From assembly GCA_022446885.1 (NCBI GenBank), contig JAKVBU010000021.1, positions 1 through 59,748 of the forward strand: a DNA stretch of 59,748 bases, given 5' to 3'. A program made the translations under genes and the position numbers. Below, one piece after another: positions 9,474-25,922 of this stretch (position 1 is the stretch's first letter; each line of letters begins with the position of its first letter). This stretch comes from Phycisphaerales bacterium (GTDB taxonomy: Bacteria; Planctomycetota; Phycisphaerae; Phycisphaerales; SM1A02). Under the pieces are notes generated by a model. It ran no database searches. It was given only the letters and a program-made list of their open reading frames with translations, and was not told the origin of the DNA.

Positions 9474-11804
9474 ATGCCCCTGATTCCCTCTGTACTGGCA
9501 GTATTGACCATGGCGACGACCGATCCACACGGGGCCCAGACTGAAAGAGCCCCCAATGAGCTTCTGAACGAGACAAGCCCTTATCTGCTGCAGCACGCCT
9601 ACAACCCGGTGCAGTGGTACCCATGGGGGCAAGAGGCGATCGAGAAGGCCCGGCTTGAGGACAAGCCCATCTTCCTGAGCGTGGGGTATTCAACCTGCTA
9701 TTGGTGCCACGTGATGGAGCGGGAGTCCTTTGAAAGCGAGGACATCGCGGCCATGCTCAATGAGCACTTTGTACCGGTCAAGGTGGACCGGGAAGAACGG
9801 CCCGATGTAGACGACATCTACATGACCGCGGTGCAGGTCATGACGGGCTCGGGCGGTTGGCCCATGTCGGTGTTCATTGAACCAGGCTCACTTAAGCCCT
9901 TCTTTGGGGGCACCTACTTCCCCCCATCAGACATGGGCGGGCGGCCGGGGTTCGGCACCCTGCTTGAAGCAATTCATGAGGCGTGGATCGATCCGGCCAA
10001 GCGGGTGGAGTTGGAGGGGCAAGCAGATCGTCTCGCTGCCGCGGTGGAAGCGCGTCTGGCCGCCATGCCAGAGCCAGCCTTGCCCACCAGATCAGTGGTG
10101 GATGCGGCGGTGGCGCAGTTGATGTCAACCTACGACGAACAGGACGGCGGCTTTGGAGGCGCACCGAAGTTTCCCACGCCGCCGAATCTGCAGCTGCTCA
10201 TGGCCACGGCTTGGGACCGCCCGGATGTACAGCAGGCCCTGATGCATACGCTCGATCGAATGGTCATGGGCGGCATCTATGATCAGGTCGGTGGGGGCTT
10301 TCATCGTTACAGCACCGATGCTCGATGGCTGGTGCCGCACTTTGAGAAGATGCTCTACGACAACGGGCAACTCGCTTCGGTCTACGCCGAAGCAGCAATG
10401 CGAACGGATGAGGGGCTCTATCGGGCTGTCGCCAGCGAGATCGCCGACTACGTGCTGCGCGACATGATCGATGCCAGCGGCGCCTTTTGGTCGGCTCAAG
10501 ATGCCGAGTCCAATGCCCGCGAGGGTGAGAGTTACATCTGGACACCGGTTGAAGTGGATGCCGCTCTGACCGCGGGGGGTCTTGACGCCGATGACATTGC
10601 ATTCGCCCACCGCGTGTATGGCCTGAGTGAAGGGGCCAACTTCCGAGACCCACACCACGCCTCCGATCCCAGATGGGTACTGCATCTGGTTGATCATCCT
10701 TCGAAACTGGCTGCAGCTGAGGGTGTTACAGGCCCAGCGTTTCATCAGTGGCTGGTGCGGGTGAACGAGGCGCTCAAGGTAGTACGGGATGCACGCGAAC
10801 AACCCATCACTGACGACAAGGTGCTGGCCGGTTGGAACGGATTGATGATTGCAGGCCTGGCCGACACAGCTCGGGCGACGGGGGAGCAGCGATACATCGA
10901 CGCTGCTATTGCCGCAGCCGACGCGATTCGCTTGCACATGTGGAACGAGGAGACCGGGCTCAAGCGGTCGATGCGTGGCGGTGAGGCTCGCATCGACGCC
11001 TTTCTAGAGGACTACGCACTGCTCGGGGGTGGAGCGATGGCGCTGCATCGGGCCACGGGAGACCCGCAGTGGCTCAATTGGGCGCAGCAACTGGCAGATC
11101 AGGCAAAGGAGCGCTTCTTTGTGACCGAGTCTGGCTGGTTCGACATGCCCGCGGGCGATGCGTTGCTGTTCGTACGAGGGCGTTCTCTTTATGACGGGGC
11201 CATGCCTGCAGGCACATCCGCGATGCTGGCGCTGCTGGTTGCCTTGGCCGAGGCGACAGAAGACGAACGCTGGCTTGATCTCGCTGCCCAAACCGGGGCC
11301 TCCATCGGCCCCGTGTTGGAGCGATCGCCTCGCAGCATGCCTGTTGCCGTGCGCGCGATCGACGGGCTGCTTCGTCACAAGCCTCTTGAGCAAGGCGCAG
11401 TGGAGGCGTCTGCCAAACACAGCGAGGGGGCCGTGACCGCTCATGTCATCGGCTTGCCCTCGTCGCTGGCTGGCGGTGCGTCGGCTACGGCCCGCCTGGT
11501 GCTCACCATGGACAAGGGGTGGCACGTGACGCTGCCGGGCACGAATGACGAATTCGCAATGCCCCTGCAGGTGGATCCCGGGGACCCCACGCTGGAGGTC
11601 CAGATTGACTGGCCCAAGGGGCATGCGCTCCAGACGCTCGCTGGAGAAGTGCAGGTGCTTGAGGGCACCGTCGAGATCCCGCTTCGCATCCAGCGGGCCC
11701 AAGGAGGTGCGGACGCGCCCGTGAGCATCGTGGTGACCTGGCAGGCTTGCGATGATCAGATGTGCAAGGCCCCGGTCACCCATCGATTCGGGGAGGCGCC
11801 CTGA
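9474..11804 (+). CDS. YyaL/SSP411-family (DUF255) thioredoxin-domain protein with C-terminal DsbD-N-like domain
   Basis: Residues about 25-180 are the DUF255 thioredoxin-like domain: [21 protein letters not shown], then [16 protein letters not shown] with the CxxC pair C75/C78, then [14 protein letters not shown]. Residues about 190-600 are the (alpha/alpha)6 part, with [44 protein letters not shown] and [13 protein letters not shown]. The family is widespread; a role in thiol redox or sugar chemistry has been suggested but not settled. The last ~125 residues (about 652-776) do not belong to the family. They have a beta-rich pattern ending [13 protein letters not shown], which matches the N-terminal domain of DsbD with its C-x5-C pair. 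The ATG at 9474 was chosen because of TACCAT 9 bases upstream; the alternative is 9510. Confidence 0.88.
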
Positions 11805-11806
11805 CC

Positions 11807-12349
11807 ATGTCCGATGTTCTGCAAATCGCACTGGTTCAGACAGGGGGCACGATCGAGAAGACCTACAACGCATGGGGCGGCACATTGGCCAATGCAGGGT
11901 CCGTATTGGAGGACATGCTCAATGGGCTGCAGTTGGAGGGCGTGCAGGTGCAATTGCATCCATTGCTCGCCAAAGACAGTTTGGATCTGACTCCGGGGGA
12001 TCATGATCTGATCGTAAAGCGGGCCCTTGAGCTGGCTGGAGATCACGATGGTGTTGTGGTCTTGCACGGAACCGATCGCCTCTCGGTGACGGGAGAGCAA
12101 CTACACACAGCCTGTGGAGGTGCGCCAGAGGCACCGATTGTGCTCACCGGGGCCATGCGACCCTGGATTTTGCGTACCAGCGATGCCCTCCAGAACCTCA
12201 CGGAGGCTCTGCTTGCGGTACAACTGCTGCCCCGTGGAGTGCATGTGTGCATGCACAACCGGGTTCTGACCTTTCCCGGCGTCGTGAAGGACACGGCGCA
12301 TCTGCGATTCGTCTCTGCCGATGAGACACAAGAGGAGCTCGACGCGTGA
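11807..12349 (+). CDS. Single-domain asparaginase-like protein
   Basis: This 180-residue protein equals only the N-terminal (catalytic) domain of type I/II L-asparaginases. QTGGTIEKTY holds the first nucleophilic Thr, VVLHGTDRLSVTG the Thr-Asp pair, and LTGAMRPWILRTSDALQNLTEAL the conserved third motif. The C-terminal domain of full-length enzymes (about 320 residues) is absent. The next gene starts within the stop codon (GTGA), so this is a natural short form, not a truncation by the window. Similar short asparaginase-domain proteins exist in other bacteria; whether they hydrolyse asparagine is not clear. The ATG lies two bases after the stop of the YyaL-type gene, so the two are coupled. 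Confidence 0.85.
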   Translation: MSDVLQIALVQTGGTIEKTYNAWGGTLANAGSVLEDMLNGLQLEGVQVQLHPLLAKDSLDLTPGDHDLIVKRALELAGDHDGVVVLHGTDRLSVTGEQLHTACGGAPEAPIVLTGAMRPWILRTSDALQNLTEALLAVQLLPRGVHVCMHNRVLTFPGVVKDTAHLRFVSADETQEELDA

Positions 12350-14409
12350 GCCAACCGAAGTACCGAACCGCCCCAGTGCCCTCCAAGCGCATGCCCGGTG
12401 GTATTCCCTACATCATCGGTAACGAAGCGGCCGAGCGGTTCAGCTTCTACGGAATGAAGGGCATCCTGGTCGTGTTCATGACCAGTTATCTCTTCATGCT
12501 GCCAGGGTCGTCTGCGACCGAGCGGATGGGGCAGACCGAGGCCATCTACAACTACCACCTGTTCACCTCGGCGGTCTACTTCACGCCAATCTTCGGCGCT
12601 CTGCTGAGCGACATTCTGCTGGGCAAGTACCTCACGATCATCAGCCTGAGTCTGGTGTACTGCGCCGGTCACGCGGCACTGGCATTCATGGGCGCTGGGG
12701 ATGGCATCAACCCCGGATGGATGCTGTTTCTGGGGCTTGGGCTGATCGCACTGGGATCGGGGGGCATCAAGCCTTGTGTGAGTGCCCATGTGGGTGACCA
12801 GTTCGGCAGGACAAACGGCCATTTGCTGTCAAAGATCTACGGCTGGTTCTACTTCTCGATCAACGTAGGGGCCTTCCTGTCGACCCTGCTCACGCCTTGG
12901 CTGCTGGAGTGGTACGGCCCGCACTGGGCGTTCGGTGTTCCGGGCGTGCTGATGGCGATCGCGACGTTCATGTTCTGGCTTGGCCGCAAGAAGTTCGTGC
13001 ACGTGCCTGCCGGCGGGCTCAAGTGGTTCCGCGAGACATTCAGTTGGGAGGGCATTTGCACGATTCTCAAGCTGAGCCCCATCTACGTGTTTGTGGCTGT
13101 GTTCTGGGCCCTCTTCGATCAGACGGGCAGCGCCTGGGTGCTGCAGGCTGAAGATCTTGAACGGAAGTGGCTCGGCATCACCTGGCTGTCATCACAGATT
13201 CAGGCGGTCAACCCGATCATGATCCTGGTGCTGATTCCGGTGTTCACGTTCATCATCTATCCGCTGATCAACAGCGTCTGGAAACTGACGCCCCTGCGAA
13301 AGATCGCCTTGGGGCTGTTCGTGATGGCGGTTGGATTCTCGCTGGCTTCCATTGTTCAGGGTTGGATCGATGCAGGGCAGCGCCCGAGCATCGGCTGGCA
13401 GGTTGCCGCCTATTCGATCCTCACCGCGTCGGAAGTCATGGTGTCGATCACCTGCCTCGAGTTCTCCTATACGCAGGCACCGCGTGCCATGAAGTCGGTG
13501 ATCATGGCGCTCTTCCTGATGAGTGTGTCACTGGGCAATGTGTTCGTGGCCGGCGTGAACAAGGTGATTCAGGTGCCGTCAATCGCAGCCGATGTGAAGG
13601 CGCTGGCATCGGAGTTCGGCGCCGAGCATCAGTCCATGAGCGAGCACGGCACATCCGGAACGGCTGACCGCACGCTCAATCGTCATCGCCATCACAGGGC
13701 CATGCAGCAGGGCGTCGCCTACGAGCCTGCCAAGGATGGCCACTTCACCATGGTGCTGGCGGGTGTCGATGATGTGTTGGGTTCAGGCGACGACATTCGG
13801 TTGGGCTTTGCGCCCGATGGCACGACAACGGGCATTGTCGGACAGGAGTCCGATGACATCCGCCAAGGCATAGCGCGTGTGTCCAACTTCTGGGAAGCGA
13901 ACCACCGCTTGCCCACGAATGAAGAAGGCACTGATCTGGTCAAGTCCATCACGGATCCCTGGGGCCAGCCGCTGCACTATCAAATGCGCAACAGCAAGAA
14001 GTTCATCGTCTCCAGTAGTGGCCCGGATTCCACATGGCAGAGTCAGTTCGACATTCGGGGCGAAGTCACGGTGACCTCGCTGACCGAGGCGGAACACGAA
14101 GACGCTCAGGATGCCAAGGCCGAACCGGACGTTCTGGCATGGGCGCACCCCGAGCACACTTGGATCGAGCGTGAAGTGGCCAAGCGCGAAGGGCTCGAGT
14201 TGAAGCCCAAGTCGGAGCACGAGCGAGAGGCCTACGTGCCTGGCTTTGCCGGCGAGGTGCGTTGGGATATTGGAGGGTCCAACCTGCTCTCGGGCGCCAG
14301 TTACTTCTGGTTCTGGACCTGGGTGATGCTGGGCACCGCCATCATCTTCATTCCGGTTGCTTGGCTGTATCGACCACGGACATACCTCCAGGAAGAGGAG
14401 GAAGGCTGA
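12346..14409 (+). CDS. POT-family (PTR2) proton-dependent peptide transporter with GspG-like insert
   Basis: The N-terminal ~410 residues are a POT transporter: GNEAAERFSFYGMKGIL is the ExxERFxYY proton-coupling motif, LGSGGIKPCVSAHVGDQF the PTR2 signature, and about 11 membrane helices follow. The start is a GTG overlapping the asparaginase stop (GTGA). Between about residues 412 and 642 a 230-residue hydrophilic insert interrupts the fold before the last helix pair (ASYFWFWTWVMLGTAIIFI). Residues about 505-570 of the insert read RLPTNEEG...ITDPWGQPLHY...FIVSSSGPDS...FDI, the order of conserved residues in the calcium-binding C-terminal part of the major pseudopilin GspG. A second stretch, VDDVLGSGDDI, resembles the same loop. 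Normal POT proteins of about 500 residues lack this. Confidence 0.9.
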   Translation: MSQPKYRTAPVPSKRMPGGIPYIIGNEAAERFSFYGMKGILVVFMTSYLFMLPGSSATERMGQTEAIYNYHLFTSAVYFTPIFGALLSDILLGKYLTIISLSLVYCAGHAALAFMGAGDGINPGWMLFLGLGLIALGSGGIKPCVSAHVGDQFGRTNGHLLSKIYGWFYFSINVGAFLSTLLTPWLLEWYGPHWAFGVPGVLMAIATFMFWLGRKKFVHVPAGGLKWFRETFSWEGICTILKLSPIYVFVAVFWALFDQTGSAWVLQAEDLERKWLGITWLSSQIQAVNPIMILVLIPVFTFIIYPLINSVWKLTPLRKIALGLFVMAVGFSLASIVQGWIDAGQRPSIGWQVAAYSILTASEVMVSITCLEFSYTQAPRAMKSVIMALFLMSVSLGNVFVAGVNKVIQVPSIAADVKALASEFGAEHQSMSEHGTSGTADRTLNRHRHHRAMQQGVAYEPAKDGHFTMVLAGVDDVLGSGDDIRLGFAPDGTTTGIVGQESDDIRQGIARVSNFWEANHRLPTNEEGTDLVKSITDPWGQPLHYQMRNSKKFIVSSSGPDSTWQSQFDIRGEVTVTSLTEAEHEDAQDAKAEPDVLAWAHPEHTWIEREVAKREGLELKPKSEHEREAYVPGFAGEVRWDIGGSNLLSGASYFWFWTWVMLGTAIIFIPVAWLYRPRTYLQEEEEG

Positions 14410-15732
14410 TCAGCCGGCAGGCCGGGCTCCGGAGTCAGGCCTGGCTCGGGAGTCAGGCCTGGCTCCGGATTCAAGCTTGACTCCAGTGTCAGGCTCAGCT
14501 CCAGAGGACTCAGCCGCCGCGGTAGGCACTTCACGGTCTGGCCGCATCGCCTGCAAGGTGATGCGGTCATTGGCCACGTTCATCAGAATGAAGGGCCGCA
14601 TCGGGTCGCTCGTGGGCCGAGCAATCCAGCTCGTCAGGTCGAGCCGCATCAGGCGGTTCTTGTCGTTGCGGTCCTGCCAGTGCAGGCCTTCGGGCAAGGT
14701 GAGCAGGAAGCCGCCGCGGTCATCGTGCACACACGCCACCGACTGGTCCGCCAGCAGCATGGGCTGCTGCCAATTCAGGCCGGTGGGCATCCACAACATC
14801 ATTCGCTGTTGACGGGGGTCGTAGTAGAAGACCTCTTCCAGCGGCGGTGTGGGTGTACCCACGACATGATGGCGAGCAGTGGCCGAAATCAGTGCATCCA
14901 CCGGGCGGCCGCCGGCCATGATCGGAATGCTGCGAAGATCCTGCTCCAGGGTCGCGGGGGAGTCGGCATCGAGCGAGATGAGTTGCAACTGATCGGGCGT
15001 GAGCCGGTAGGCGCTGAGCCGATTCGATCGCATGGACCAGGAGGGCAGCAGCCAGTTTCCGGTGCCATGAGGAATCACCGTCTCCTGATGCTCGCGGGCG
15101 TGCAGCCCGGAAAAGCGAATGACCAGATCAAACCTGGAATCGTCGATCTTGCGTTCGCTCCAGGCGAGTCGGCCGTCGAGCCCGATGGAGGGAAATGCTG
15201 CGACCGCATCGCCCTGCACCAGCCACGTCAGGTCTCCCGTGTTCCAATCAACTTTGCCGATCCAGCGGCTGCCGTCTTCATTGGGGCGCTCGACGAGGAA
15301 GCCGGTCTCATCGGCGCTGTCGGTCAGGAGCAGTGGGCCTTCCAACTCGGTCTGCACACGCATGCCTCCGCGGCCGGGAAGCACCTGCCAGATGGCGACT
15401 GAGGTGTTTGAGGGAACTGGCCCGCCGGGCATGGCCAAGCGCGTCATGACACTGGGCTCATCGCCGGTACTGACCGCGATGTGGGCGCCGTCAGGGCTCA
15501 GCAGGGGGAGGATTGTCTGCCCGGCTGGGATGTCGCCAAGATGCCAGGTGCCGCCGGTGAATGAGAGTCGAGATGCTTCGGCCGACAGGAACTGCTGCTC
15601 GGAAATCTCAGCGAGGCGATCCCACTGCTGTTGTGTCAGTGTGGACCGCTTGGGCCATTGCGTCTCTCCGGTCGTACATCCGCTGAGCACGACAGACGCG
15701 GCGATCAGTGCCATTGAGGGGCGCACTCGCAT
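14410..15732 (-). CDS. Lipoprotein of unknown function, last gene of the type II secretion operon
   Basis: The protein has 440 residues. The signal ends in the lipobox LSGC, so the mature N-terminal Cys should be lipidated. The body has WD/beta-propeller-like blocks (ILPLLSPDGAHIAVS, AFPSIGLDGRLAWSERK, NWLLPSWSMRSNRLSAYRL), suggesting a TolB-like fold, but I cannot assign a family. The last ~25 residues are an imperfect Ser-Gly-Ala-Arg-Pro-Asp repeat, with a matching DNA repeat. The ATG at 15732 overlaps the gspD stop (TGATG); the GTG one codon upstream is less likely. Lipoproteins at this place in secretion operons can act as secretin pilotins, but the length and propeller-like pattern do not match known pilotins. 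Confidence 0.8.
   Translation of the reverse strand: MRVRPSMALIAASVVLSGCTTGETQWPKRSTLTQQQWDRLAEISEQQFLSAEASRLSFTGGTWHLGDIPAGQTILPLLSPDGAHIAVSTGDEPSVMTRLAMPGGPVPSNTSVAIWQVLPGRGGMRVQTELEGPLLLTDSADETGFLVERPNEDGSRWIGKVDWNTGDLTWLVQGDAVAAFPSIGLDGRLAWSERKIDDSRFDLVIRFSGLHAREHQETVIPHGTGNWLLPSWSMRSNRLSAYRLTPDQLQLISLDADSPATLEQDLRSIPIMAGGRPVDALISATARHHVVGTPTPPLEEVFYYDPRQQRMMLWMPTGLNWQQPMLLADQSVACVHDDRGGFLLTLPEGLHWQDRNDKNRLMRLDLTSWIARPTSDPMRPFILMNVANDRITLQAMRPDREVPTAAAESSGAEPDTGVKLESGARPDSRARPDSGARPAG
14413..14495. repeat. Short imperfect tandem repeat at the lipoprotein 3' end
   Basis: Copies of a motif close to GGAGTCAGGCCTGGCTC recur about every 15-18 bases through the last codons of the lipoprotein gene and encode the Ala-Arg-Pro-Asp-Ser-Gly tail. 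Copies differ at several positions (one reads GGATTCAAGCTTGACTC). The tail length is probably variable between strains. Confidence 0.6.
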
Positions 15733-18632
15733 CACTTGTTCTCGGGTACCGCGTCAGGGTCGATCTGCCGCAGTCGTTCTCGGGTTTCGTCGGTCTGAGG
15801 CGTGATACGACGCAGCAGCGAACTGTCGGGGCCGTACTGGTCGATCTCAGTCTGAATCGGGTCACGGTCAGGTGGCTGGACATTGCCCTTTTCAGTGACA
15901 CGCTCGTAAACATTCAGGTCGATGAGGGCCTGCTCATCTCGCAATTGTTCGCCAAGTGGACGAGCCACAGCTTCGAGGCGTTGCAGATCTTCGACGTTGT
16001 AATTGGAGTAGTTGTCGAAGGGGCGGTGCACAACGGTCGGCGTGAGGAACGCGATCAGTTCAGTCCGTTCAAGCGACTCCTCGGTGTGCGAGAAGAGCCC
16101 ACCGATGAGGGGGATGTCACCCAGAATCGGAATCTTGGTCTTCAGCACCGTCTCCGTCTCTTTGAGCAGGCCGCCGATCACGACCGTCTGCCCATCGAGC
16201 AGAATCACGTGGCTCGAGACCTGCTTGCGGGTGAAGATCTGGCTGTTGACGGTGCCGTCGGCGCCGGCGCTGATCGTGGCGCTGGGGCCGATGGCGGAGA
16301 GTTCCAGCGTCACCGTGAGGTCTACTGCCCCTTCCTCGGTGATGCGGGGCCGTACGTTCAGGAATACACCGACGTTCTTGTAGTTGACGTTGGTCTGCGT
16401 GTTGAGACCAGCTGAAGCACTGTCGGTGATGGATGAGACGACCGGATACTCAAGGCCGCTGAAGAACACAGCTTCCTCGTTGTCGGCCGTGTAGACCCGC
16501 GGCTCCTGAATGACTCGGGTGTTCGTCACGGTATTGAGCGCCTCGATGACCAGATTCAGATCAAAGGGCCCCAGGGCCAGCACGCCGGTCGTGCCCGTAA
16601 GCAGGTGGTCGAAGATGAACTCCAGAGGATTCAGGGTGGATGATTGATAGTTGACGCCACCAGCGACGTATCCATTTGGTTGGCCCCCGAACTGGATGGG
16701 GGCCGAAGTGAACACGCCTTGTCCCTGTTTGGAGATGCCCCGTCCCATTTGCACGCCCAGATTCAGGCTGTCACCCAAGTCCACTTCCACGACGGTCGCC
16801 GAGATCATCACTTGGCGTCGTGGCCGATCAAATGCGTGAATCAGCCGAACCATGGAGTCTCGATAGGCCGGCGGGGCAAGCACTGCCAGTGCGTTCTGGC
16901 GAATGACTGGCACCACTCGTACCTTGCCGATCAGGGCCGATTCTGCCGACTGGTCGTCTTCGTTTCCGCCCGTTTGCCAGGGGAAGTTGAGGTCCTGAGA
17001 TCCGCTGGCGGTGTCGGGGCCGGAGATGTTGATGCCGCCCGAGCTCGAGGAACTGTCTGATGCCGCGAAACCCTCTGCCGTCAATCCGGTCTCCGGTCGC
17101 GGCAACGAAACACGGGCACCAGCCCGCGCCAGCAGAATGTTGATCTCTTCCGAGAGCTCGACTGCGTTGGCGTACTTGAGCGGGATGACTTCCGGCAGAC
17201 CGACGTCGGTGGGCTGATCCACTTCCTCGATGATCTGCTCGATGAAGTCGAACGACTCGGCGGTCTTGGCCAATACGAGCAGGGCGTTTCGATCGGGGAA
17301 GGCCTCGATGTTGTAGACACCTTCAATGCCCTCGGTGGCGGTGGCACCGCCGCTTTGGCCACTACGGCCTGCTGGAGAGCGGCCACTTGAACTGGAACCA
17401 CCCCCGGCGCCCAGCACGGTCTGCAGCAAGTCTCGCACCTTGATCGGATCTGTGTACTTGAGAATGAACAGCCGGGAGGTGCCCTCGGGTCGAGGCAGAT
17501 CCCACTGCCGTTCAATCAGCACCGTGATGTCTTCGAGCACATCTCGCTCGGCCTCGATCGTGATCGTGTTCTGTTGGGCGTTGACGGTGGTTCGCAGCGG
17601 CACACGCTGACGTCCCTCGATCTGGCTGGTGTTGGTCCGGGGCGTATTTCGACCGCGGTTCTGGTTGTTCGACTGGCCGCGGGAGGGGGTTGTTCGTGAT
17701 CCCGAAGACGAGCCACTCTCTTCAAACAGCGCCAGTACGTTCTCTTCGATCTGCAGCGCATCAGCCCACTTCAGGCGGAATGTGCGGATGTGATCGTCGA
17801 GCCACAGGTGGTCTTGCTCCTTGATGATCAACTCCGCTTGTTGGCACAGAGCCACATCGCCCAGCAGCAAAATCTGGTTCGACAGCGAGTCGCCGGTGAT
17901 CTTGGCATAGTCCGCCGGGAAGAACGTCTCGAGATTCTGCACGATCGTCTCGGCGTTGGCCCGTTCGACCTGGAAGATCTTGAGGATGAGTGTGCCTCGG
18001 TCGATCCGCTCGGACACGGTGTCTTGCGGCCCGACAACTTCGATCTCGCCCAGCTCGTCGCGCATGTCCAGCAACTTGCCGATGAAGATCACATCGGGGC
18101 GCTCGATGATGCCAATTTCGTTCATCCGCAGATAACTGAAGATCAGATCGAGCGCTTCCGATCGGGGCACTGCTTCATCAGCGATGATGGTGAATTCATC
18201 TCGGGCAGCCGATGCAATATTGTTGCCCACGGGCATCACGATCTTGCCGGTCTCGATGGCGATGAAGTCGAGCAGATCGTCGAACTTCACTTCCTTGAGA
18301 TTGAGGGTGACAAGTTCATCTTTGACGGGACGCCGATCAGTTCGAGCCCGGCCGTGTCCGAATTGAGGCGGAACGGGGGCTTCAACCTCTTCTTCGATCG
18401 GGGCAGGTTCGGGCGCCTCAACTTCGTCTTCGGTCGGGGCAGGCTCAATTGGTGCAGATGCAGGTTCCTCAGGCAATGCAGGGGACTCGATCGGATCCTC
18501 GGCTGGCTCTTCAATGATGGGCGCGGGTGGAGGGGGTTCCGGGGCTGGACGATCAGGAGCGTCCTGAGCCGTGGCGATGTGAGCCACGAAGAAGGCGATG
18601 GGCAGGATCAGTCGCATCATTGGGACGGGCAT
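15732..18632 (-). CDS. gspD: Type II secretion system secretin GspD
   Basis: This is the outer-membrane secretin ring, 966 residues. Residues 1-22 are a signal peptide (LILPIAFFVAHIATAQ). Residues ~24-100 are Pro/Glu/Ala-rich, and then come N0/N1-type repeats (LLDFIAIETGKIVMPVG, LKYTDPIKVRDLLQTVLGAGGG, LKYANAVELSEEINILL). The C-terminal secretin domain shows VVEVDLGDSLNLGVQMG, VYTADNEEAVFFSGLEYPVV, VNYKNVGVFLNVRPRI and LKTKIPILGDIPLIGGLFS, the last being the diagnostic membrane-spanning signature. I chose the ATG at 18632, which follows GAGAG and lies 13 bases after the upstream stop; an upstream in-frame start would overlap that gene. After the secretin domain there is a ~70-residue hydrophilic tail. 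Confidence 0.93.
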   Translation of the reverse strand: MPVPMMRLILPIAFFVAHIATAQDAPDRPAPEPPPPAPIIEEPAEDPIESPALPEEPASAPIEPAPTEDEVEAPEPAPIEEEVEAPVPPQFGHGRARTDRRPVKDELVTLNLKEVKFDDLLDFIAIETGKIVMPVGNNIASAARDEFTIIADEAVPRSEALDLIFSYLRMNEIGIIERPDVIFIGKLLDMRDELGEIEVVGPQDTVSERIDRGTLILKIFQVERANAETIVQNLETFFPADYAKITGDSLSNQILLLGDVALCQQAELIIKEQDHLWLDDHIRTFRLKWADALQIEENVLALFEESGSSSGSRTTPSRGQSNNQNRGRNTPRTNTSQIEGRQRVPLRTTVNAQQNTITIEAERDVLEDITVLIERQWDLPRPEGTSRLFILKYTDPIKVRDLLQTVLGAGGGSSSSGRSPAGRSGQSGGATATEGIEGVYNIEAFPDRNALLVLAKTAESFDFIEQIIEEVDQPTDVGLPEVIPLKYANAVELSEEINILLARAGARVSLPRPETGLTAEGFAASDSSSSSGGINISGPDTASGSQDLNFPWQTGGNEDDQSAESALIGKVRVVPVIRQNALAVLAPPAYRDSMVRLIHAFDRPRRQVMISATVVEVDLGDSLNLGVQMGRGISKQGQGVFTSAPIQFGGQPNGYVAGGVNYQSSTLNPLEFIFDHLLTGTTGVLALGPFDLNLVIEALNTVTNTRVIQEPRVYTADNEEAVFFSGLEYPVVSSITDSASAGLNTQTNVNYKNVGVFLNVRPRITEEGAVDLTVTLELSAIGPSATISAGADGTVNSQIFTRKQVSSHVILLDGQTVVIGGLLKETETVLKTKIPILGDIPLIGGLFSHTEESLERTELIAFLTPTVVHRPFDNYSNYNVEDLQRLEAVARPLGEQLRDEQALIDLNVYERVTEKGNVQPPDRDPIQTEIDQYGPDSSLLRRITPQTDETRERLRQIDPDAVPENK

Positions 18633-18645
18633 GCGAGGGGCTCTC

Positions 18646-19380
18646 TCAAGGGGTGTGGGCGCCGCTGGCGCCCCGCGTTGGTCTGTTGTCCTCGACATGG
18701 GGTCGCGAACGACCTTCGAGGAGGGTGTCGGTCACTGTCTCATTGGCCGAGGGAAGTTCATCGGCCGGGAACAGGTCGAGTTCGAATGGGCCGCCGCCGC
18801 GCCAATGCACGGTGACGGTGCGGGGGGCGTCGATGGCGACGACTTCGATTTCCTCGAGCACTTGGCCACGAGGGATCACGATCAGGTCGTCGTTCTGTTT
18901 GAATACGGCATCGGAGCCCCACACCATCACGAGGTCCGGGCCGGCATAACGAGAGGGGCCGCTGGGCGGTAGTGGTGGTGGCGGGGGGGCGATCTCACGA
19001 GGCTTGCAGGTTTCTTCCGTGCACGACGAGCCGCCTTTCCAGGTGCCGCCAGATACACGACACTCACTACGCTCGAGGATCTGGCACTCAGTCTCAGACA
19101 TGCAGCAGGCACCGGTGGGCTCCGGTGGTGGCGGGGCGGGAGGTGCTGGTGGGTCGAAGAAGAAACTGCGTCCGTGGATTCGGTTTCGATCCACGCGATC
19201 GACATCCAAGTGGGCTTCGATCGTCCGAGCGTGGATCGCCGGATCGGGTGCCTCGCCGCCACGCAGGTGGGCGATGGTGCGGCTCACCGGCACCGCAAGC
19301 CAGATGACAATGATGATCATCGCCCCTACAGCAGCGAGGCTCAAGCCGAGCGGTCCACGTAGATCATCGCGGTGCATCAT
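18646..19380 (-). CDS. GspC/PilP-like inner-membrane protein with Cys-rich module
   Basis: The protein has 244 residues. One transmembrane helix near residues 12-31 is followed by a periplasmic part, like GspC or PilP, which link the inner-membrane platform to the secretin. The neighbours agree: gspM is just upstream (ATGA overlap) and gspD just downstream. Residues 89-125 are a compact Cys module, TGACC-x5-C-x7-C-x4-GGTWKGG-x2-C-x4-C with six Cys, flanked on both sides by polyproline (residues 77-87 and 131-139). This module is known from extracellular proteins of planctomycetes and does not occur in classical GspC. The C-terminal ~110 residues look like an HR/PDZ-type beta-rich domain, but no motif allows certainty. 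The call is from context plus topology. Confidence 0.72.
   Translation of the reverse strand: MMHRDDLRGPLGLSLAAVGAMIIIVIWLAVPVSRTIAHLRGGEAPDPAIHARTIEAHLDVDRVDRNRIHGRSFFFDPPAPPAPPPPEPTGACCMSETECQILERSECRVSGGTWKGGSSCTEETCKPREIAPPPPPLPPSGPSRYAGPDLVMVWGSDAVFKQNDDLIVIPRGQVLEEIEVVAIDAPRTVTVHWRGGGPFELDLFPADELPSANETVTDTLLEGRSRPHVEDNRPTRGASGAHTP
19006..19116 (-). other. Cys-rich GACC...GGTW module inside the GspC-like protein
   Basis: Encodes residues 89-125 of the GspC/PilP-like protein, six cysteines (92, 93, 99, 107, 120, 125) within 34 residues around a Gly-Gly-Thr-Trp core. It lies between polyproline linkers, so it is probably an independently folded, disulfide-bonded periplasmic domain. Confidence 0.7.
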
Positions 19381-25487: not shown

Positions 25488-25922
25488 CTACTGCGTGACG
25501 TCCTCGTTCTCGCCCTCACCGCCAGGGGAACCGTCTTTGCCATAGGAAAGAATGTCGAAGTCGGCGTTGATGTCACCTGGCACGAGCACGATGAAGACAT
25601 TGCCCCACGGGTCGATGATGTCGTCCGCCTTTGGCAGATAACGGCGGGGGCCACCTCCGTCATCGGGGCCCAGCACCAGAATCTCGAGGTTGAAGTTGTC
25701 CTCCAGATCGCTACCACCGGTTTCGGCAACGTACATGTTCAGTGCCTGAGCAATCTTGCTCGCCTGCGTCTTGGCGATGGCGGTCTTACTCGAGCCGAGG
25801 GTGCCGATGACGCTTGTGGTGAGCACTGCCGCGAGCAGGGCGAGCACAGTCACCACGACGATGACCTCGACCATGGTGAAGCCGCGTCGGGCTCGTCGTG
25901 AGTGGTGTCGTTGACGGGGCAT
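25488..25922 (-). CDS. gspG: Type II secretion major pseudopilin GspG
   Basis: The 144-residue protein has a basic leader and then RRGFTMVEVIVVVTVLALLAAVL with the cleavable Gly|Phe and Glu +5. The second half has the GspG landmarks: LNMYVAETGG, YLPKADDIIDPWGNVFIV and FDILSYGKDGSPGGEGENEDV, i.e. the D-P-W-G-N turn and the calcium loop S-Y-G-x-D-G. It would polymerise into the pseudopilus. GGAG lies 8 bases before the ATG. It follows gspF by 21 bases. Confidence 0.93.
   Translation of the reverse strand: MPRQRHHSRRARRGFTMVEVIVVVTVLALLAAVLTTSVIGTLGSSKTAIAKTQASKIAQALNMYVAETGGSDLEDNFNLEILVLGPDDGGGPRRYLPKADDIIDPWGNVFIVLVPGDINADFDILSYGKDGSPGGEGENEDVTQ

Follow-up and report, generated by a model that had tools for sequence, protein, structure and literature searches.

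Why should a bacterial peptide transporter carry, just ahead of its last membrane helix, a large soluble segment that recalls the major pseudopilin of a secretion system? The question is raised by a POT gene in a 59,748-nucleotide contig of a Phycisphaerales bacterium (JAKVBU010000021.1 of assembly GCA_022446885.1; the whole stretch is called the window here), in which the gene adjoins a type II secretion system (T2SS) cluster. A reading made from the letters alone, referred to below as the sequence-only reading, had pointed to a GspG-like pattern in this transporter. We find a real, well-supported fusion of a domain with a known transporter family, which is neither a one-off of this genome nor a pilin.

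The transporter and its insert

Judged by its sequence, the 687-residue product of positions 12346-14409 (+ strand, GTG start) is a POT/PTR2 (proton-coupled) peptide transporter. It scores 260.9 bits against the Pfam family PTR2, for which the cut-off is 27, and its closest solved structures are 2xut (PepTSo, E 4.2e-89) and 6ei3. Its translation contains NEAAERFSFYG and LEFSYTQAPRAMKS, which we take to be the ExxERF-type and EFSYTQAP-type signature motifs of POT proteins. Since the alignment to 2xut advances only from residue 222 to 233 of the query where 2xut runs from 207 to 291, a stretch that presumably comprises two extra helices between the bundles, the window POT appears to lack these helices.

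In the alignment to PepTSo the insert begins after transmembrane helix 11 (TM11), which ends near residue 409, and it occupies residues 410-644 (235 residues; 13573-14277, + strand), followed by TM12 at about residues 656-674 (14311-14367, + strand, from hydropathy). No hydrophobic stretch is present in residues 409-644, where the best 19-residue hydropathy mean is 0.64. POT proteins have an inside-inside topology in which the TM11-TM12 loop is periplasmic, which would place the insert on that side of the membrane, and its net charge of -17 fits this. Both the hydrophilic insert of about 230 residues ahead of the last helix and the extracytoplasmic location given in the sequence-only reading agree with these results, and the segment that it had marked, 13579-14275, corresponds to residues 412-643 and holds RLPTNEEG, TDPWGQP, SGPDS and FDI in that order. 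An assembly artefact was considered and ruled out, as 82 more loci from many assemblies, the chromosome records CP036272 and CP036290 among them, carry the insert.

A GspG-type domain within the insert

We hold it almost certain that residues 497-577 (13834-14076, + strand), taken alone, adopt a pilin-type fold, that of a GspG-type (T2SSG) domain lacking the N-terminal pilin helix. The evidence lies in the homologues. Scanned singly, 17 of 81 inserts matched the Pfam family T2SSG (PF08334) at E<=0.01, with a best value of 2.7e-6, while the next family was found in 2, and a profile of the 81 rows searched against all PDB sequences returned GspG as the five best (E 0.0013-0.075). This alignment omits L046, which has unknown residues, and L066, whose frame leaves the match at residue 570. 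For hhalign comparisons the GspG-type part (insert residues 85-172) was used as the query. Against 30 pilin-type sequences of relatives, chosen by a motif filter with other pilins included, it gave a probability of 97.0, a score of 59.6 and E 1.3e-10 (reckoned for a single comparison), and none of 100 column shuffles reached the real score (best 14.8). Against a stricter set of 22 rows, about five of which look like pilins other than GspG, the probability was 96.6, the score 56.4 and E 5.7e-10, again with 0/100 shuffles reaching the real score (best 19.4). The profile match to the T2SSG family that had been called for was thus obtained with the homologues, over which the GspG-like pattern lies far beyond chance.

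All 83 aligned rows match a profile of the GspG-type part at E<1e-5, the profile having been built from most of the same rows; L105, whose match ends at residue 550, falls under the insert length limit. Near-constant positions are P523 (80/83), D537 (80/83), Y545 (83/83) and G559 (83/83), D561 and D569 are conserved in 78 and 76 rows, and W606 and G643-G644 are also among the most constant. The DPWG turn at residues 537-540 (13954-13965, + strand) is kept with the same D537 count, P538 in 48, W539 in 58 and G540 in 73 of the 83 rows. No GFTxxE-type motif, prepilin leader or hydrophobic first half of helix 1 was found in residues 409-644. What stands of the proposed pseudopilin domain is this core of about 80 of the 235 residues and not the insert as a whole.

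The AlphaFold model computed from the insert alignment has a mean pLDDT of 91.0 and a pTM of 0.79. It places a helix at residues 500-519, a short helix at 525-532 and strands at 544-547, 552-557 and 570-576. In a second look with VIA-align over Foldseek's 1000 best matches only, the top structure was 3g20 (E. coli GspG; Z 7.6, root-mean-square deviation 2.2, 75 residues aligned), followed by 5o2y (PulG), 3gn9 and 3fu1 at Z 7.4 each, the GspG proteins of V. vulnificus and V. cholerae among them. The alignments to these four structures span 75-80 residues. Type IV pilins took ranks 5-7 (Z 6.3, 5.9 and 5.5), and the rows after them were PI3-kinases (Z 5.1) aligned to the N-terminal part of the insert. 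The seven pilins on top of the ranking of the model agree with the sequence result. Two outcomes had been named as fatal to the sequence-only reading, namely a missing profile match together with a fold unlike GspG, and disorder in all homologues; the model predicts a well-ordered, GspG-like fold, and neither outcome was seen.

Calcium-type loops and the N-terminal part

In 3G20, as described in the study of its calcium site (PMC3396595), calcium is contacted by D117, T122, D125 and the main chain on a loop with the motif GxDGxx[GN][TN]xDD, and a peptide with this motif binds calcium; the T122 contact is given there once as side-chain and once, in the discussion, as main-chain. The loop GPDSTWQSQFD of the insert (residues 559-569; 14020-14052, + strand) aligns with that of E. 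coli GspG, such that D561, S566 and D569 correspond to D117, T122 and D125, and the three positions hold D in 78, S or T in 81 and D in 76 of the 83 rows. An earlier loop, GVDDVLGSGDD (residues 473-483; 13762-13794, + strand), aligns with the published motif without matching it literally; its positions D475, S480 and D483 hold D in 47, S or T in 47 and D in 62 of 83 rows, gaps counted. A relaxed form of the motif occurs in 59 of 81 inserts, and twice in 9. Since each part of the insert holds a loop with the ligand pattern of major pseudopilins, the insert most likely folds in a calcium-dependent manner in the periplasm, as far as calcium binding can be judged from such a pattern.

The N-terminal subdomain (residues 410-493; 13573-13824, + strand) contains GVDDVLGSGDDI and is predicted to form two helices and then a strand-loop-strand. 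It is perhaps, and with reasonable likelihood, a degenerate second pilin-type copy. Compared with the GspG-type part by hhalign, it aligned over 34 columns with a probability of 78 and a score of 27.5, the best of 100 shuffles scoring 16.2. Modelled alone from 48 of 58 candidate rows, it gave two helices and four strands at pLDDT 87.7. Foldseek returned no match for it at E<=0.001, and in the second look type IV pilins held ranks 2 and 3 (Z 5.8 and 5.2) behind pantothenate synthetase (5.8), with 3g20 only at 3.8. Compared directly with the two pilin sets, it gave weak scores of 16.4 (probability 2.6%, best shuffle 14.0) and 18.3 (probability 5.1%, best shuffle 16.1). Because the fold comparison is tied with an unrelated protein, the second-copy assignment leans mainly on the comparison with the C-terminal part. 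The N-part profile is unmatched in 12 of 83 rows, and seven (L098, L100, L101, L102, L107, L108 and L110) have fewer than 30 residues ahead of the GspG-type part. Beyond the GspG-type domain, a linker helix is present at residues 606-615 (14161-14190, + strand, from the alignment and the AlphaFold model), with W606 kept in 82/83.

Distribution and history

A first search covered 61 genomes, 35 of which had a transporter match when distant POTs were counted. Among 37 genomes of the window's own family the match ran through the insert in 10 and lacked it in 12, the rest having distant, fragmentary or no matches. Named-species genomes were then scanned, with the best 80 of 347 relatives kept, a ranking that favours carriers, and removal of identical rows reduced 104 to 99. 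An insert of at least 120 residues is present in 82 loci besides the window: 58 of Planctomycetota, 16 of Verrucomicrobiota, four of the window's family and four with other labels (L054, L066, L055 and L098), whose organism labels come from the titles of draft records. Of 214 genomes drawn evenly from the phylum, 17, which belong to three families, had a strong long match (E<1e-30), and 57 had any match at E<=1e-5, shorter ones included. The combination of transporter and domain is thus real, as had been claimed, and is not unique to this genome: it is old, conserved in Planctomycetota and Verrucomicrobiota and common to many members of these two related phyla.

A tree of the transporter core was built from 101 rows with the insert columns removed, L063, L024 and L023 being too short. 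Carriers span the Verrucomicrobiota and Planctomycetota lineages. The 13 rows without the insert fall in one supported clade, drawn from the family and order of the window, that also encloses the carrier L009. The insert label needs three changes on the tree, or four with L103, which is labelled 'none' merely because a contig end cuts it. This fits one early gain and a later loss, with a second gain or several losses around L009; the early branches are not secure. The insert diverges faster than the core, with values of 42% and 81%, respectively, between the window and L045.

The clade without the insert often has another extension. The TM9-TM10 region is long in 8 of 13 non-carriers (66-264 residues, against 21 otherwise) and in 0 of 80 carriers, a count that includes the window, omits L103, L023, L063, L024, L105 and L066, and has a Fisher value that ignores kinship. 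Regions of 206-264 residues are found in the insert-free POTs L015:1680-2273 (+), L017:949-1542 (-) and L016:757-1530 (-). Two of these extensions resemble F5/8 type C domains (L017, E 5.5e-5; L015, 0.0049), both under the Pfam cut-off.

The same module in other proteins

T2SSG matches were obtained at seven places in the window's genome, at least two of them in non-pilins, the POT and a TraB/GumN-type protein (G000:C14) in which TraB is over its cut-off and T2SSG under its own. In the TraB/GumN-type proteins L165 and L166 of relatives, T2SSG is over the cut-off and TraB slightly under, and L191 and L192 appear similar by eye (L192, T2SSG E 7e-10). T2SSG is also over its cut-off in the long proteins L189 (E 1.2e-17) and L190 (E 7.8e-6, together with DUF3352).

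The five best non-POT matches to the GspG-part profile that were inspected (L183, L184, L194, L185 and L195; 48.5-60.3 bits) are small frames that are hydrophobic in their N-terminal half and show no pilin motif. The next are L196, of the same kind, and L197 and L200, lipoprotein-like by eye, as all membrane, lipoprotein and signal anchors of the non-pilin frames were judged. The real pilins inspected (L198, L199 and L201) score 42.5 bits and less. Because the five best are small non-pilin membrane proteins that stand ahead of real pilins, the POT insert is, on these profile scores, one case of a wider use of the module. Since pilin-free modules outscore real pilins, it is also more likely, by the same scores, that the transporter took up, or shares its origin with, a pilin-free module than that it acquired the gspG of the neighbouring operon. 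Hence, a T2SSG profile match in Planctomycetota or Verrucomicrobiota does not by itself denote a pilin.

Several further frames with such modules were noted. The module lies in mid-protein in the TraB/GumN-type L116:862-2100 (-), L165:1093-2448 (+), L166:850-2397 (-), L191 and L192. L125, L126 and L129 are additional small proteins with a hydrophobic N-terminal half, one T2SSG module and no pilin motif, the 308-residue L183 frame has two modules, and L197 and L200 show by eye a signal and a cysteine, with the module at the end. L189:2220-4679 (+) also has two modules, L190:869-3391 (+) is the frame with DUF3352, and L186:539-4081 (+) is an open frame of 1181 residues in which three stretches resemble the module and Pfam gives no match at E<=0.01. 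At L113:1009-1557 (+) and beyond (G000:C65), a lipoprotein-like open reading frame runs into a GspG-like stretch broken by TAG, and its YKTAIAKTQASKIAQAL is nearly identical to that of the window's GspG.

Gene neighbourhood

The POT gene is preceded by a gene for a 195-residue protein with an asparaginase N-terminal domain (11762-12349, + strand; four-base overlap with the POT start) and followed by a gene of unknown family at 14410 and the GspD-type secretin of the T2SS cluster (15732-18698, - strand). Further along is the genuine GspG (25488-25922, - strand), whose frame runs from 25922 to 25488 with GFTMVEV, then DPWGN and SYGKDG, just as the sequence-only reading had it. In flanks of at most 3 kb at 109 loci, genes related to the asparaginase gene, the 14410 gene and the secretin were present at 33, 25 and 19, respectively, and no secretin was found in such flanks at loci labelled Pirellulales or Verrucomicrobiota. 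As in the window, an insert-bearing POT lies about 11 kb from a T2SSG gene on one contig in G002, G006, G009 and G036; insert-free POTs lie at about 14 kb (G011) and 13 kb (G014). Because insert-free relatives share it, the linkage to the T2SS belongs to the transporter gene and not to the insert, and the insert was dropped as a marker of such linkage. In each of the 20 insert-bearing genomes that were searched, the GspG model found matches at E<=1e-5, in 14 of them over the cut-off, and only partial matches to that model were obtained in G264 (L099) and G268 (L107).

Discussion

We propose that the insert serves a proton-coupled peptide transporter as an accessory domain outside the cytoplasm (an ectodomain), a reading towards which we lean on balance. 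Its core, at about residues 497-577, would be a GspG-type pilin fold without the membrane-anchoring helix, placed after a probable degenerate second copy, and calcium would stabilise the folding of the ectodomain in the periplasm. Fixed in the TM11-TM12 loop, the domain would most likely act as a binding or docking platform and not as a pilus subunit. The docking role, like that proposed for the PepT1/2 ectodomain, is a guess by analogy, as is any partner: putative targets are proteins of the periplasm or secreted ones, peptidases for example, or the domain may alternatively be a lid near the peptide entrance. The contrast in the TM9-TM10 loop between carriers and non-carriers counts for the ectodomain idea.

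GspG/PulG and the insert share the globular pilin fold, the LPT-x-EG after the helix, the DPWG turn and the GPDx...D calcium-type loop. The insert differs in lacking the prepilin leader, the N-methylation motif and the hydrophobic first half of the helix, in lying inside a polytopic transporter, and in its scores, which are higher for some non-pilin modules than for the GspG proteins inspected. The T2SSG modules of the TraB/GumN, DUF3352, small membrane and lipoprotein-like proteins are of the same kind, likewise without a pilin helix and apparently outside the cytoplasm, but have other hosts and no transporter. PepTSo (2xut) and 6ei3 share the transporter core and the PTR2 family, whereas the alignment with their chains of 524 and 514 residues stops at TM11, ahead of the insert. 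Mammalian PepT1 and PepT2 (SLC15A1/2) likewise bear an additional folded domain, apparently two in tandem, on the outside of a POT transporter. In these proteins, according to PMC4597091, the ectodomain lies between TM9 and TM10 and consists of two immunoglobulin-like domains, whereas the insert lies between TM11 and TM12 and is pilin-like, pilins standing first among the rows listed in its second look. The TM9-TM10 region of the window POT is short, with no insertion of the PepT type. The same source (PMC4597091) reports trypsin binding by the PepT ectodomain and no appreciable loss of transport when this domain is taken away. By analogy it is the best functional counterpart and equally a caution, as the insert may be dispensable for transport. 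According to a review (PMC4331665), bacterial, fungal and plant homologues do not have the large ectodomain. A search of the open-licence literature found no paper joining a pseudopilin or T2SSG domain with a POT transporter or with Planctomycetes.

Several results weigh against our proposal. The single-sequence evidence for pilin identity is borderline and too weak to decide: the window insert alone matches T2SSG at E 0.011 and 16.2 bits, under the cut-off of 21 (E 0.15 when the whole POT is scanned), reaches 14.9 bits against TIGR01710 (NCBIfam), for which the cut-off is 88.85, and in a slightly longer cut has no Pfam match at E<=0.01. BLASTP of the insert with the window's own GspG aligned only DPWG (E 0.083), and a PDB search with the insert alone returned only encapsulins, at E 0.36 or worse. 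Foldseek by itself gave no significant match (E<=0.001) and no GspG among the 50 rows listed, the second look was confined to Foldseek's best, and Z values below 8 are modest and can reflect a common arrangement. The published calcium motif occurs literally in 13 of 81 inserts, 12 of these in the N-terminal part, and not in the window insert. The insert is missing from a supported clade, and the loop association does not amount to 13 independent events, since all 13 non-carriers belong to that clade. Finally, the peptide-capturing and secretion-linked roles that the sequence-only reading offered as possibilities are, like the docking partner, putative.

A possible, if doubtful, alternative is structural or near-neutral decoration: the periplasmic loop would tolerate a stable domain whose role goes no further than stability or spacing. 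Its absence from one POT clade, its faster divergence than the transporter and the removal of the mammalian PepT ectodomain without appreciable loss of transport (PMC4597091) would all suit such a decoration. Fold residues and calcium-type ligands are nevertheless kept across two phyla, the GspG-type part is matched in every row of a profile built largely from those rows, and the insert-free clade often has another loop extension.

A broader idea, which we consider unlikely, is that the pseudopilin domain has turned into a general calcium-dependent extracytoplasmic adaptor in envelope proteins of Planctomycetota and Verrucomicrobiota, with transporters, TraB/GumN proteins, lipoproteins and other envelope proteins as hosts, and that in the POT it draws secreted peptidases, or the secretion machine, to the place of uptake. 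If true, this would be a protease-recruiting ectodomain in a bacterial pump and not only in mammalian PepT.

The adjoining T2SS cluster, the secretin in the flanks of 19 of 109 loci, the spacing of about 11 kb between POT and T2SSG genes in G002, G006, G009 and G036, and the GspG matches in all 20 carrier genomes speak for a docking of the domain on the T2SS pseudopilus or assembly platform, which would couple the secretion of digestive enzymes to the uptake of the resulting peptides. We regard this as improbable. The pilin helix, which drives packing in the pseudopilus, is absent from the domain, and the best non-POT matches of the domain are non-pilin membrane proteins, ahead of the best real pilin. 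Insert-free G011 and G014 are similarly linked, G264 and G268 have only partial GspG-model matches, and Pirellulales and Verrucomicrobiota loci show no secretin in their short flanks. We give very little credence to a convergent origin of the tryptophan-glycine turn and the acidic calcium-type loop, which the weak single-sequence scores and the loop motif's presence in unrelated proteins, such as peroxidase inserts (PMC3396595), might suggest, because the match runs through helix, turn and strands in the expected order, with a structural alignment of 75-80 residues and four GspG structures in the top ranks, and because profile scores reach 56-60 where the best shuffle gives 19.4.

With the insert read as an ectodomain, a whole bacterial POT lineage would possess such a domain, at another loop and of another, pilin-type fold than in mammals, and long extensions of the TM9-TM10 loop, the site used in mammals, are frequent in a related clade. 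Why peptide transporters acquire ectodomains therefore becomes testable in bacteria.

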